Virus record (IMG/VR): IMGVR_UViG_3300046457_000247
Span: 1-45,266 of that record
Strand: one strand, 5' to 3'
Origin: a virus
DNA length: 45,266 nucleotides
The notes beneath the pieces were generated by a model, which searched no databases, had not been told where the DNA came from, and was given only the letters and a program-made list of their open reading frames with translations. The number at the start of each line of letters is the position of its first letter. Positions within the stretch are counted from its first letter, which is position 1. Positions 36,636-45,266 of this stretch are shown here, piece after piece. Made by a program: the position numbers and the translations under genes.

Positions 36636-36698
36636 TAGTTGGTTCCGGGGAGTGTTGGTACGGTGCACCAGTTCAATCGTCAACAAGGAATTTGGTTC

Positions 36699-37604
36699 AT
36701 GCGTATCGCACTCCTCGCTTCCGTCGCTCTGATCGGTCTCTCGTTCCCGGCATCGGCGCAGGTTCTAAGCCCCGCTCCTTCTGTCGCCAACAACGACGGC
36801 ATGATGACCCAGTACGGGTCCAGCAACACCTTCATCGGCAGCCAGTCCGGTAAGGACAACTACAGCAGCCAGATTCAAGGCAGCCAGTTCGCCACGGTGA
36901 CCGAAGCTCGGGGCGAAGTGACACAGACCGGCAACTGGAACCAGTCCACGCAGTTGCAGCGGTCCAACTACGACCTTGCCAAGACCATCCAGACCGGCAA
37001 TACCAACGAGTCGATCATCTCGCAGGATCGCAGCGTCGATGGCCGCAACACCAGCCTGACCACACAGACCGGCGATCTGAACAAGGTCGAAACCAAGCAG
37101 CAGGATGGAGGCTCGAACCGGTTTGAATCCACGCAGATCGGCAACAAGAACAACATCTTCTCTTACCAGATCAGCAAGTCCAACCTCGCCTACATCGATC
37201 AGAACGGCGACGAAAACAAGGCGACCGTTTGGCAGTACATGGGCGGCAATAACACCACCGACGCCACGCAGAACGGCAACAAGAACACCATCAACGTGAA
37301 GCAGGGGGAGAGCCGGAGCGACCGCTGGAACACCCCGCTGAACAACAGCACCTATCTGACGCAGACCGGCAATTCGAACATCATCACGGTCGAGCAGCTT
37401 GGCACCAGCAGCGGGGCGAACATCTACCAGACCGGCAACAACAACATCGGGTCCGTCTGGCAGTACAGCGGTACGGCTAATCAGGCGACGATCACACAGA
37501 ATGGCGACATGAACCACGGCAGCGTCAGCCAGCAGGGCAGCAAGGACTGGGGCCGCATCTATCAGCAGGGCTACGACAACGCGGCCCACATGACGCAGAA
37601 GTAA
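36699..37604 (+). CDS. Secreted curlin-repeat (CsgA/CsgB-like) protein
   Basis: 301 residues from ATG 36699 (AAGGA nine bases upstream). The first 20 residues, MRIALLASVALIGLSFPASA, are a Sec signal peptide with an A-S-A cleavage site. From about residue 35 on there are roughly a dozen repeats with the curlin pattern Q-x-G-x-x-N, such as TQTGNWNQS, IQTGNTNES, TQTGDLNKV, QNGNKNTI, TQTGNSNII, YQTGNNNIG and TQNGDMNHG, with some degenerate units (QQGSKDWG, QQGYDNAA). Curlin subunits form extracellular amyloid fibres. Host-like moron, or a phage surface protein; no CsgE/F/G partner genes are in the window. Strong terminators stand before (35090) and after (37632) this section. Confidence 0.8.
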   Translation: MRIALLASVALIGLSFPASAQVLSPAPSVANNDGMMTQYGSSNTFIGSQSGKDNYSSQIQGSQFATVTEARGEVTQTGNWNQSTQLQRSNYDLAKTIQTGNTNESIISQDRSVDGRNTSLTTQTGDLNKVETKQQDGGSNRFESTQIGNKNNIFSYQISKSNLAYIDQNGDENKATVWQYMGGNNTTDATQNGNKNTINVKQGESRSDRWNTPLNNSTYLTQTGNSNIITVEQLGTSSGANIYQTGNNNIGSVWQYSGTANQATITQNGDMNHGSVSQQGSKDWGRIYQQGYDNAAHMTQK

Positions 37605-42702: not shown

Positions 42703-42880
42703 GATCGATCACAACAGGCAACGGGCTAAGGCCAAAGGGGTTGTCGCATGGCACGCCAGCGTTGTTGAGATGGCGGTGAACGGCGTTTATGATGAGGCAC
42801 GGCAACGGCGGTTGGACCGGTGGAAGAAAAGGCTGAAGACGCGCAAGCCGAAGCCCTACCGGAGCATACCGATCAACTGA
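42695..42880 (+). CDS. Small basic protein
   Basis: 61 residues from GTG 42695. About a third are Lys or Arg (ARQRRLDRWKKRLKTRKPKP). It overlaps the preceding gene and is followed within 13 bases by the next. A nucleic acid-binding role is possible. No family recognised. Confidence 0.5.
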   Translation: MAKIDHNRQRAKAKGVVAWHASVVEMAVNGVYDEARQRRLDRWKKRLKTRKPKPYRSIPIN

Positions 42881-42892
42881 GGGAGACGGGAT

Positions 42893-43216
42893 TTGGGCAA
42901 GACAGTGACATACGGGGATCGCGAGTTTGACCTTCAGGAAGTCATTCGCCTGCTCAATCAGGCGAGCAGCGTGCGCGCCGTGATCCGGCAACTCGACCTG
43001 CCGGTGGGCGGCGGCAGCTACCGCTTTCTCAATCAGGTGATCGAGGGCTGCGGCGTCGATATCAGCAGGATGCCCCGGCAGGCGTGGGCCGCTGGCCTGA
43101 CGATTGAGCACCCGCTGATCCGCAAGCGCCAGTCGCGCATGCCGCCGACCCGGCACCGGCTCAAGAAGGCGGAGAAGGAAGCGCTGGCACGCCAGCAGCA
43201 GATGGAGCAGGCTTGA
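42893..43216 (+). CDS. Homing-endonuclease-type helical domain protein, nuclease part missing
   Basis: 107 residues from TTG 42893 (GGGAG eight bases upstream). The segment LNQASSVRAVIRQLDLPVGG and then YRFLNQVIEGCGVDISRM matches the DNA-binding helical unit that precedes HNH domains in many phage homing-type proteins (S-x-R-x-V-x-x-x-L-x-L...G-x-Y...GVD-S). No HNH follows. The C-terminus is a basic helix. It overlaps the convergent resolvase-like gene by 56 bases. Confidence 0.5.
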   Translation: MGKTVTYGDREFDLQEVIRLLNQASSVRAVIRQLDLPVGGGSYRFLNQVIEGCGVDISRMPRQAWAAGLTIEHPLIRKRQSRMPPTRHRLKKAEKEALARQQQMEQA

Positions 43217-43565
43217 TCAGGGCGAAGAAGGCGTCCATGTCGAGGACGACCAGCGGCTTCCTGCGATCCTGCTTGATCACGACCAGCGGCGTCAGGTTGC
43301 CCTGAGAGGCAGCCTGATCCATCGCGTCATAGATCAGGCTGAAGCCCGCCGCGCGGGCTTTGACTTCCACCTCATAGGGAAATGCCGCCTTGGCGGCGGT
43401 GCTCAGGATCACATCCGAGCCATTGCTGCCCATCGGGCAACTTCTGACATCATCCTCGGTCAGTGCCGAGAAGGTATCTAAAACTTTGGCGACGACCGCC
43501 TGCTGCGCGCGTCTTCCTTTTGCCTTACCGGCTTGTACACTAATCCGAGCCACGTTAAACACCAT
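43161..43565 (-). CDS. Holliday junction resolvase-like (PD-(D/E)XK) protein
   Basis: 134 residues from ATG 43565. The core matches phage PD-(D/E)XK resolvase-type proteins: GSNGSDVILSTAAKAAFPYEV (D and the strand), EVEVKARAAGFSLI with the E-x-K pair near residue 70, IYDAMDQAASQGN and then LVVIKQDRRKPLVVLDMDAF. These enzymes resolve branched DNA before packaging, which fits a late promoter. Its promoter motif (43582-43589) is divergent from that of the next gene. It overlaps the end of 42893-43216. Confidence 0.7.
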   Translation of the reverse strand: MVFNVARISVQAGKAKGRRAQQAVVAKVLDTFSALTEDDVRSCPMGSNGSDVILSTAAKAAFPYEVEVKARAAGFSLIYDAMDQAASQGNLTPLVVIKQDRRKPLVVLDMDAFFALIKPAPSAAGVPALPSPPS

Positions 43566-43566
43566 C

Positions 43567-43574
43567 CATAAATA
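43567..43574 (+). promoter_or_regulatory. Late promoter motif CATAAATA, plus strand
   Basis: The only plus-strand member found in a gene gap. It lies 27 bases before ATG 43602. Confidence 0.55.
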
Positions 43575-43581
43575 CTAATCC

Positions 43582-43589
43582 TATTTACG
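43582..43589 (-). promoter_or_regulatory. Late promoter motif CGTAAATA, minus strand
   Basis: It faces the resolvase-like gene. The plus-strand motif lies seven bases away, so two divergent late promoters share 23 bases. Confidence 0.5.
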
Positions 43590-43601
43590 AAAGTGATTTT
43601 G

Positions 43602-43934
43602 ATGCGCGCGATACGAACGATTTTTGGTGAACTGAAAGCAGCCTTCATGAAGGGGGTGCGCGAGGAGCGGCGCGAGCAGGCGGAGCGCTTTTTCGTCGGC
43701 GAGATGGACGGCGACACCGAGATGGTCCTGATGCTGGAAGAGTACATCGAGGCGATGGACTGCAACGATCCGGTCAGCACCGACCTGCTGCTGGCCTACA
43801 CCGACCGCCGCACCAAGTACATCTTCGACCAGTCGGTGCGGTTCAAGCGCGACTACCGCTACACCCTGACCAAGCTCGACATCGACACCCGGATACTGGG
43901 GCTGATCGCCCACGGAGGCCGCGACGATGCCTAA
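43602..43934 (+). CDS. Unknown late protein
   Basis: 110 residues from ATG 43602; a GTG three codons upstream is less likely. It is helical and charged throughout (ELKAAFMKGVREERREQAER, MVLMLEEYIEAMDCND). A TAAATA motif precedes it. It overlaps the next gene by eight bases. No family recognised. Confidence 0.6.
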   Translation: MRAIRTIFGELKAAFMKGVREERREQAERFFVGEMDGDTEMVLMLEEYIEAMDCNDPVSTDLLLAYTDRRTKYIFDQSVRFKRDYRYTLTKLDIDTRILGLIAHGGRDDA

Positions 43935-44175
43935 GATCACGCCGCCGCCCAAGGCGCAGTTCAATCCGGCCCACATCGCCGAGGTCTCCGGCGTCAACCG
44001 CGCCAAGTATCTCGCCGAGATGCGCGCCCACATCGCCCGCCAGTGGGAAGAATATAATATCGACGCCAGACTGGCGATCCCGTATAAACAGATAGTGACC
44101 GATTGCCGAGTGATTTCGAAGAAGCCGCACGTGGCTTCTGTGCCAAAGTCTTGGGCCAAATCGAAGAAGTCGTGA
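43927..44175 (+). CDS. Unknown small basic protein
   Basis: 82 residues. It includes PKAQFNPAHIAEVSGVNRAKY and ends with basic VPKSWAKSKKS. It is co-transcribed with the gene before it. Function unknown. The DNA after it has no further plus-strand gene before a terminator at 44362-44388. Confidence 0.55.
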   Translation: MPKITPPPKAQFNPAHIAEVSGVNRAKYLAEMRAHIARQWEEYNIDARLAIPYKQIVTDCRVISKKPHVASVPKSWAKSKKS

Positions 44176-44861
44176 TTGGATACAAGCGAATACCTCAGAC
44201 CACGGGGCCTGCGTTAACCGCCAAAATTCGGTGCAGGGAGGTGGTACGAAGTCCACTGGGCGGTGGCTTCGCATTGGAAACAACACCCAGCGCGCTCGGA
44301 GGAATAAAGCCGGTATTTGCCTATAAGTACCCGCCTTCTCGCCTCGCGGAACGCAAAACAGAAAGGCTCCCTTGCGGGAGCCTTTTTCGTTCGTAGCCCC
44401 TTGAAGGGCTTGGGTAATCGCCTTTTATTCAACCGGCGATCTGATTTTGTCGTAGCCCCTGAAAGGGCTTGCTGCGGGAGGTTATCCAGCAGATACCGGG
44501 CTTGTTGTCGTAGCCCCTTGAAGGGCTGGTTAGATGCCGTGCGGCCGGACCGATGATGACTTATTGTCGTAGCCCCATAAGGGCTTCGCGCCTCCAGTGG
44601 TTGGTTCGAGATACCGCGCTATCTCTATTTGTCGTAGCCCCATCAGGGCTTGCCGTCTCAGGCTAATCGTCGCCGACGCCTCGCTGTTTTCGTAGCACCA
44701 TTCTCGGCGCTTAGCTTTCCGTCTCTGTAGTTGTCGTAGCCCCCGAAGGGGCTCACTCTTCCACGTCGCCCAAGCTGAGGTAGTTGTCGTAGCCCCTTGA
44801 AGGGCTTGATCGGTCAGTCCGCCTTGCCAGAATTGGACAACATTGCCGTAGCCCGGAGGGC
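44176..44861. other. Non-coding region with terminator and hairpin array
   Basis: The first 185 bases show no gene or tRNA that I could support. A plus-strand terminator ends that part. The rest is an array of nine hairpins described separately. Confidence 0.6.
44362..44388 (+). terminator. Plus-strand terminator before the hairpin array
   Basis: GGCTCCC with GGGAGCC (44365-44382), a TTGC loop and five T. It ends the transcript of 43602-44175. Confidence 0.85.
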
Positions 44862-44862
44862 T
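44392..44862. repeat. Array of nine hairpins at about 59-base spacing
   Basis: Units begin CGTAGC at 44392, 44451, 44509, 44568, 44633, 44691, 44735, 44788 and 44847 (steps 59, 58, 59, 65, 58, 44, 53, 59). The consensus is TTGTCGTAGCCCC, a short loop, GGGGCT, TG. Both arms vary together: unit 7 has CCCCC with GGGGG-type pairing, unit 9 has a shorter CCC with GGG pair, unit 6 has AGCACC with a GGCGCT-type arm. The bases between units are 20-42 long and unrelated. The 5' flank TTGTCG is conserved. On the minus strand each unit reads stem-loop then CTACGACAA. Confidence 0.75.
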
Positions 44863-45137
44863 CAGACCCCGACCAACTCCCCCTCGAAGGCAGCCTGCTC
44901 GGCCTTGTTGGCGAACTTGACGTAGACCGAGAACGAACCGTCCAGTTCCTTGCTCCAGCCGTAGCTGAAGAAGCCGACGATGCGGCGGTCCAGCCACTCG
45001 CACAGGCCGCTGTTCTTGATCATGAACTGGGTGATGGCGTCCTCGCCGGTCGCGGTGCGGTAGCTGTCCACCGTGGTCGTGAAGGTCTCGGTGATGCCGG
45101 TGCCGATCTCGTCGTAGCGGTGCTTGTCCTTGCGCAT
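44862..45137 (-). CDS. Unknown protein, strand-helix tail
   Basis: 91 residues from ATG 45137 (GGAGG five bases upstream). It ends DGSFSVYVKFANKAEQAAFEGE, a strand-helix resembling the other small proteins' tails, without FKL. The stop codon is next to the last hairpin of the array, so the array is its 3' untranslated region when read in this direction. A sigma70-like promoter with an ACACGTGT core in the spacer lies upstream. Function unknown. Confidence 0.65.
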   Translation of the reverse strand: MRKDKHRYDEIGTGITETFTTTVDSYRTATGEDAITQFMIKNSGLCEWLDRRIVGFFSYGWSKELDGSFSVYVKFANKAEQAAFEGELVGV

Positions 45138-45166
45138 GTCGTCCTCCATCTCGTTGCCGTCAGACA

Positions 45167-45194
45167 AAGATAACACGTGTACCTATGGCGTCAA
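45167..45194 (-). promoter_or_regulatory. Sigma70-like promoter with embedded palindrome
   Basis: On the minus strand, TTGACG (45189-45194), 16 bases, TATCTT (45167-45172). The spacer holds ACACGTGT (45173-45180), shared with the 30.5 kb promoter. Confidence 0.5.
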
Positions 45195-45252: not shown

Positions 45253-45266
45253 ATGGTCACAGTGAC
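45253..45266 (+). CDS. Start of a gene running off the right edge
   Basis: ATG 45253 follows AGGAGG by six bases. Only four codons are visible, so nothing can be said about the product. Confidence 0.4.

Follow-up and report, generated by a model that had tools for sequence, protein, structure and literature searches.

Phages are known to make RNAs that mimic CRISPR repeats (Racr), and in one case the racr follows a small acr gene in a shared transcript (PMC10651486). The racrs known to date are solitary, as the definition under which they were sought requires (PMC10651486). Viral mini-arrays, which hold one or two spacers, have repeats identical to those of the host and use the Cas proteins of that host (PMC11656645). 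In staphylococcal type III-A systems, the mature crRNAs carry a constant 8-nt 5' tag, ACGAGAAC, which is followed by a spacer of 29 or 35 nt (PMC5687920).

Here we analyse an array of hairpin units in a 45,266-nucleotide stretch of viral DNA, the whole of which we refer to as the window (positions 1 to 45,266 of IMG/VR record IMGVR_UViG_3300046457_000247). Like a racr, this is a phage-borne, intergenic, CRISPR-repeat-like hairpin without cas genes that could be transcribed together with a small ORF; unlike a racr, it is present as nine degenerate units rather than as one solitary unit, and no cognate host repeat was found. It has in common with the viral mini-arrays a repeat-spacer layout in a virus without cas genes, but differs from them in its eight spacers of variable length, its degenerate repeats and the lack of any target found. 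When compared with a CRISPR array proper, the window does not have the near-identical direct repeats, since its nine units differ in both loop and stem, whereas a relative described below, G764, does have them; the spacers of the window are unique, and neither cas genes in cis nor spacer matches to mobile elements were found for it. Type III-A repeats have a stem-then-handle geometry. The units resemble the staphylococcal repeats in having an 8-nt handle, ACGANAAC (in G764, the staphylococcal tag itself), followed by ~35 nt, and differ from them in that the stem of the window has another sequence, its repeats are non-identical and no cas genes were found.

A regular array of nine hairpin units

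Nine hairpin units were identified at positions 44387-44862, within a non-coding stretch that closes the window between two convergent genes. All nine are arranged head-to-tail, the exact 13-mer TTGTCGTAGCCCC is present in six of them, and the conserved flank reads TTGTCGTAGC on the plus strand. The motif count of the array was matched by none of 100 shuffles, and the start-to-start distances of 59, 58, 59, 65, 58, 44, 53 and 59 nt (range 44-65, usually 58-59; CV 0.10) show a regularity that was equalled by 6 out of 200,000 placements drawn at random. The array is thus real and far from chance, in agreement with the original prediction, which had described nine units with a conserved flank and a period of about 59 and had placed them at the right coordinates.

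The array region has stops in all six frames and is non-coding; a coding array is ruled out by these stops together with a spacing that is not a multiple of three. Eight unique intervening stretches, here called spacers, separate the units (44411..44841, minus strand) and measure ~20-42 nt, mostly 35-36 nt. No structure beyond that of shuffled sequence was detected in them (Stouffer z ~0), which bears out the earlier description of unrelated DNA between the units. Matches to GGCTACGACAA at positions 37575, 39871 and 39929 of the window lie in or adjoin coding sequence, where they correspond to Gly-Tyr-Asp-Asn codons, and were excluded as units.

The hairpins are complete on the minus strand

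Both strands of the nine units can pair, but only the minus strand gives the array its full structure, with 53 of 53 stem pairs formed as compared with 46 of 53 on the plus strand. The difference arises because U.G and G.U pairs of the minus strand correspond to C.A mismatches on the plus strand, at pair 6 in six units and at pair 4 in unit 6. Since the six cases of wobble at pair 6 may represent one inherited event, the window provides about two independent observations of strand. The original prediction had been made on the plus strand, which was the wrong one, and had missed the 8-nt handle, which is the reverse complement of its own flank.

Read on the minus strand, the unit comprises a stem of 5-6 bp (AGCCCU/GGGGCU), a loop of 3-6 nt, the 8-nt 3' handle (ACGANAA(C)) and ~35 nt of unique sequence; with the units of the window aligned by position, the 7-8 nt beyond the stem are strongly conserved, and next to no conservation is left after them. 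Unit 9 (44842..44862), which would be the first in the RNA, has the hairpin AGCCC-UCC-GGGCU and the handle ACGGCAAU. It would be followed by unit 8 (44783..44806), with AGCCCU-UCAA-GGGGCU and the handle ACGACAAC; by unit 7 (44730..44753), with AGCCCC-UUCG-GGGGCU and again ACGACAAC; by unit 6 (44686..44711), with AGCGCC-GAGAAU-GGUGCU and ACGAAAAC; by unit 5 (44628..44650), with AGCCCU-GAU-GGGGCU and ACGACAAA; and by unit 4 (44563..44585), with AGCCCU-UAU-GGGGCU and ACGACAAU. Unit 3 (44504..44527) repeats the hairpin AGCCCU-UCAA-GGGGCU with ACGACAAC, unit 2 (44446..44469) combines AGCCCU-UUCA-GGGGCU with ACGACAAA, and unit 1 (44387..44410), which would be the last in the RNA, has AGCCCU-UCAA-GGGGCU with a degenerate handle, ACGAACGA, and is not followed by a spacer. 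All of these units lie on the minus strand.

Eight of the nine stems carry AGCCC/GGGCT. The sole double change is found in unit 6, where pair 4 goes from C-G to G.U and pairing is retained on the minus strand only. Because the stem hardly varies in the window, the idea of compensatory arms rests on this one double change; the claim that the two arms change together is thin within the window, and is supported once relatives are pooled with it (see below). The AGCCC..GGGCT stem, which we take to be reminiscent of boxB, also led us to consider phage nut sites, a candidate that was dropped because the loops range in length from 3 to 6.

The strand data also bear on a reading of the plus strand as TTGTCGTAG plus a palindrome, according to which GTAG-tagged REP elements were inserted repeatedly into the phage. 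The short palindrome, one end of which bears GTAG, and the convergent intergenic site are as in such elements, and clustering is known among GTAG REPs (PMC3733652). However, pairing favours the other strand, the AG of GTAG pairs with the CT of the opposite arm in all nine units, so that GTAG is not unpaired, and the head-to-tail arrangement of the nine units is reported to be absent or under-represented among REPs (PMC3733652). There is, in addition, no RAYT (Y1_Tnp) transposase in the four records searched, and the element is not high-copy in any of the ~750 bacterial genomes examined. We therefore regard an origin from REP elements as improbable.

The anatomy of the unit likewise bears on a TIGR-like stem-loop array, that is, one whose box C/D guide RNAs are bound by a Tas protein with a Nop domain. 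TIGR arrays are tandem phage stem-loops with variable intervening sequence; they occur in phage and gut contigs, with ~13 units, and do without identical repeats (PMC12045711). The array of the window nevertheless has one conserved flank only, on the 3' side, instead of paired box C/D motifs, and a longer unit of ~59 rather than 36. As no match to the Nop domain (PF01798) was found in the phage records either, although Tas may be too divergent for this Pfam model, a TIGR-like array appears highly improbable.

A predicted transcript with a small ORF

An ORF of 95 aa and the array are together bracketed, on the minus strand, by a promoter-like site and by the best terminator, which is a strong one. 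The promoter-like site is sigma-70-like (TTGACG-16-TATCTT, with TG before the -10; 45167..45194) and was found once, as compared with a shuffle mean of 0.2. The ORF (44862..45149; 95 aa from ATG, or 104 aa from a GTG at 45176) ends in a stop codon that abuts the hairpin of unit 9, and the predicted intrinsic terminator, AAAGGCTCCC-GCAA-GGGAGCCTTT followed by CTGTTTT (44362..44385), lies directly past unit 1. We suggest that these elements would make up a short minus-strand mRNA, from promoter through 95-aa ORF and nine units to terminator, with the array as its 3' part. For most clusters scanned, the window included, no sigma-70-like site was found directly upstream of the first unit; in the window this is because the putative promoter precedes the 95-aa ORF. 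The product of the ORF has no recognisable relative and falls into no recognised protein family, and its AF2 single-sequence model has a pLDDT of 61. A search for a ToxN-like toxin beside the array, as in type III toxin-antitoxin systems with their ToxI repeats, gave no match, nor did it in control genomes.

The portal of the window phage is at most 36% identical to the portals of Xanthomonas, Stenotrophomonas, Variovorax and Pseudomonas phages. A RusA-like Holliday junction resolvase (phrog_244) is encoded near the array (43161-43565, minus strand), and a protein predicted to be secreted and containing curlin repeats (PF07012, E 2e-24), which seems unusual in a tailed phage, is encoded at 36639-37604 on the plus strand. 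Since an ORF from 45253 runs in frame into base 1 (45253-45266 and 1-220), the record may represent a complete genome in circularly permuted form.

The hairpin unit recurs in unrelated phages

Scanning IMG/VR for exact 21-mers and 23-mers gave no match, and no relatives were found there via the 95-aa protein or via the portal. Relatives were found by running two-unit gapped patterns over IMG/VR, which revealed that the hairpin unit of the array recurs in five or more further phage lineages; many scan matches, L177, L181, L185 and L187 among them, were discarded as coding or simple repeats. G001/G002 (L017/L019) contain an array of several units together with dispersed units, G763 (L175) has about seven units, and G766 (L199 2950-4250) has 17 degenerate units of the form GGCCAYCC..GGATGGCTACGATAAC. 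G765/G767 have ~25 clustered units and further dispersed ones, and G764 (IMGVR_UViG_3300045771_000049, a viral contig of 152 kb) combines an exact array with dispersed single and paired units. The window phage has no genes in common with G002, and its proteins are only weakly similar to those of G763. Several G766 spacers are ~88% identical to one another, which indicates that this array grew by block duplication. In G001 (L017 5372-5620), the hairpin interior AGCCCTACAAACGAGGGCT and its exact reverse complement both occur and the orientation of the outer flank is constant, as if the interior had been inverted.

Conservation of the stem in relatives had been set in advance as a test of the original prediction, and the stem was found to be conserved. 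In G764, moreover, the stems pair despite base changes (AGUCGC/GCGGCU, AGUCUGC/GCAGGCU and AGCCACUU/GAGUGGCU). When the four base pairs at the foot of the stem were used to set the register and pairs 5 and 6 were scored, the pooled stems formed these pairs in 106 of 148 cells, as compared with 72 +/- 4 when 3' arms were shuffled across phages and 91 +/- 3 when they were shuffled within phages; in each of the two schemes, the observed value was reached by 0 of 5000 shuffles. The signal within phages comes mainly from G764 (27 of 34, as compared with 15); it is absent in G765 (33 versus 31), G766 adds none and the window cannot yield any. These sequence comparisons support covariation of the unit stems once relatives are pooled with the window. 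An excess of G.U pairs on the sense strand was seen in the window, G763, G764 and G765, whereas G766 reverses it at pairs >=3, where A.C mismatches are the more numerous.

An exact CRISPR-like array contains the same hairpin

The start of G764 (L182 1-450) holds five exact 36-nt repeats, GTCCGGCACAGCCTTCGTTTGTAAGGCTACGAGAAC, and one more with a short deletion, with spacers of exactly 30 nt, one of which occurs twice. This arrangement is that of a CRISPR array, in a contig that is classed as viral, and it is cut by the contig end. The 3' half of the 36-nt repeat is the hairpin unit of the window. G001 comes from the same sample as G764, and its units carry the loop CGTTTGT as in the G764 repeat. 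The original prediction was right in stating that the repeats of the window are non-identical and that no Cas gene is found, but it dismissed CRISPR too quickly, as the geometry of the unit is that of a CRISPR repeat and the exact array of G764 has the same hairpin. The last eight bases of the G764 repeat, ACGAGAAC, are identical to the staphylococcal type III-A crRNA tag, a match that was compared post hoc and that we take as a lead, not as proof. G764 also encodes a TnpB-like protein matching the PADLOC models for Cas12f and Cas12u4 (42835-44106 in G764; L207 2835-4106); because this gene lies 42 kb from the array and is missing from the other records, we draw no link between them.

The exact array has implications for a different reading, in which the degenerate units would give rise to functional guides, using a Cas effector of the host or of a co-infecting element against other phages, plasmids or host transcripts. 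It shows that the hairpin core can occur in a true CRISPR-like array; the handle and the ~35-nt spacers are also as expected of guides, G766 has 17 units with partly duplicated spacers, and viral mini-arrays aimed at competing viruses provide a precedent (PMC11656645). Yet the spread in spacer length and the non-identical repeats of the window indicate that its units were not copied in by Cas1-Cas2. Furthermore, no significant spacer match was found in phage and plasmid collections, which are without hosts and close relatives, or across 0.7 Mb of viral contigs that were fetched, so that the spacer search proposed along with the original prediction returned nothing from the collections searched, an outcome named there as part of what would count against it. 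On balance, we consider a functional guide array unlikely.

The positions of the units in G764 raise another alternative, namely that a non-CRISPR RNA-binding protein or endoribonuclease, of host or phage, reads AGYC/GGCU plus ACGANAA, either in 3' UTRs or as a sponge. In G764, and in the window too, units are often found immediately behind a stop codon of the same strand, which keeps a protein other than Cas in play; the G764 units just 3' of genes also fit a general 3'-UTR element. In line with this, the stem base and handle are fixed across units, and the loop and upper stem are variable. Such binding sites would, however, leave the spacing of ~59 and the exact 36+30 array of G764 unexplained, and we know of no protein for this motif. 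This explanation therefore seems doubtful to us.

Searches for Cas proteins and bacterial counterparts

No Cas6 was found in the phage records with a model of limited reach, and PADLOC gave no credible Cas match on the scanned subset of ORFs of the window, a record that may be incomplete. None of 398 Pseudomonadota genomes contained arrays matching the general two-unit pattern. Likewise, 754 bacterial genomes from two classes had no multi-copy array of the unit, with counts at control level, and in a scan of genome contigs no tandem of handles was present in the loci fetched, among the matches listed (mostly actinobacterial). Rfam gave no match for the array unit, CRISPR repeat families included, and neither the motif nor such an array was found in the literature, in which subscription journals were thinly covered.

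Discussion

Our best reading of the array, which we put forward tentatively, is that it is transcribed to yield crRNA-like decoys that jam host CRISPR. A host CRISPR repeat-binding or Cas6-like protein would bind each stem of the transcript, perhaps cutting at the stem base, and the resulting crRNA-like RNAs, with a proper handle and useless spacers, would occupy Cas proteins, possibly those of a type III-like system. Such occupancy would blunt host CRISPR immunity, making the array a multi-copy counterpart of the solitary-repeat RNA anti-CRISPRs. In favour of decoys, the geometry of the unit, its handle and its spacer length match those of crRNAs; against them are the failure to find a bacterial array with this repeat in the genomes searched, the degenerate repeats and a 95-aa ORF without recognisable relative. 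Among the functions suggested in the original prediction, an RNA sponge or decoy and a set of small-RNA processing sites are the two that fit the evidence best.

We know of no earlier description of a long degenerate array in which the stem base and the 8-nt handle alone are retained. The array may be seen as phage-borne CRISPR-repeat mimicry in a new form, and there is a real chance that it represents a separate class. It is conceivable, if somewhat short of probable, that phage RNA arrays with the stem base AGYC/GGCU, the handle ACGANAAC and a variable spacer form a distinct class among unrelated uncultured phages, one in which arrays evolve through degeneration and the duplication of blocks, and not through spacer acquisition, with its members acting either as CRISPR decoys in multiple copies or as guides that borrow Cas effectors. 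The family is easily searchable, as a stem AGYC/GGCU followed directly by ACGANAA, in tandem. If the units are decoys, they would amount to a dosage strategy against CRISPR; if guides are made from them, a phage would be keeping a guide array without adaptation genes.
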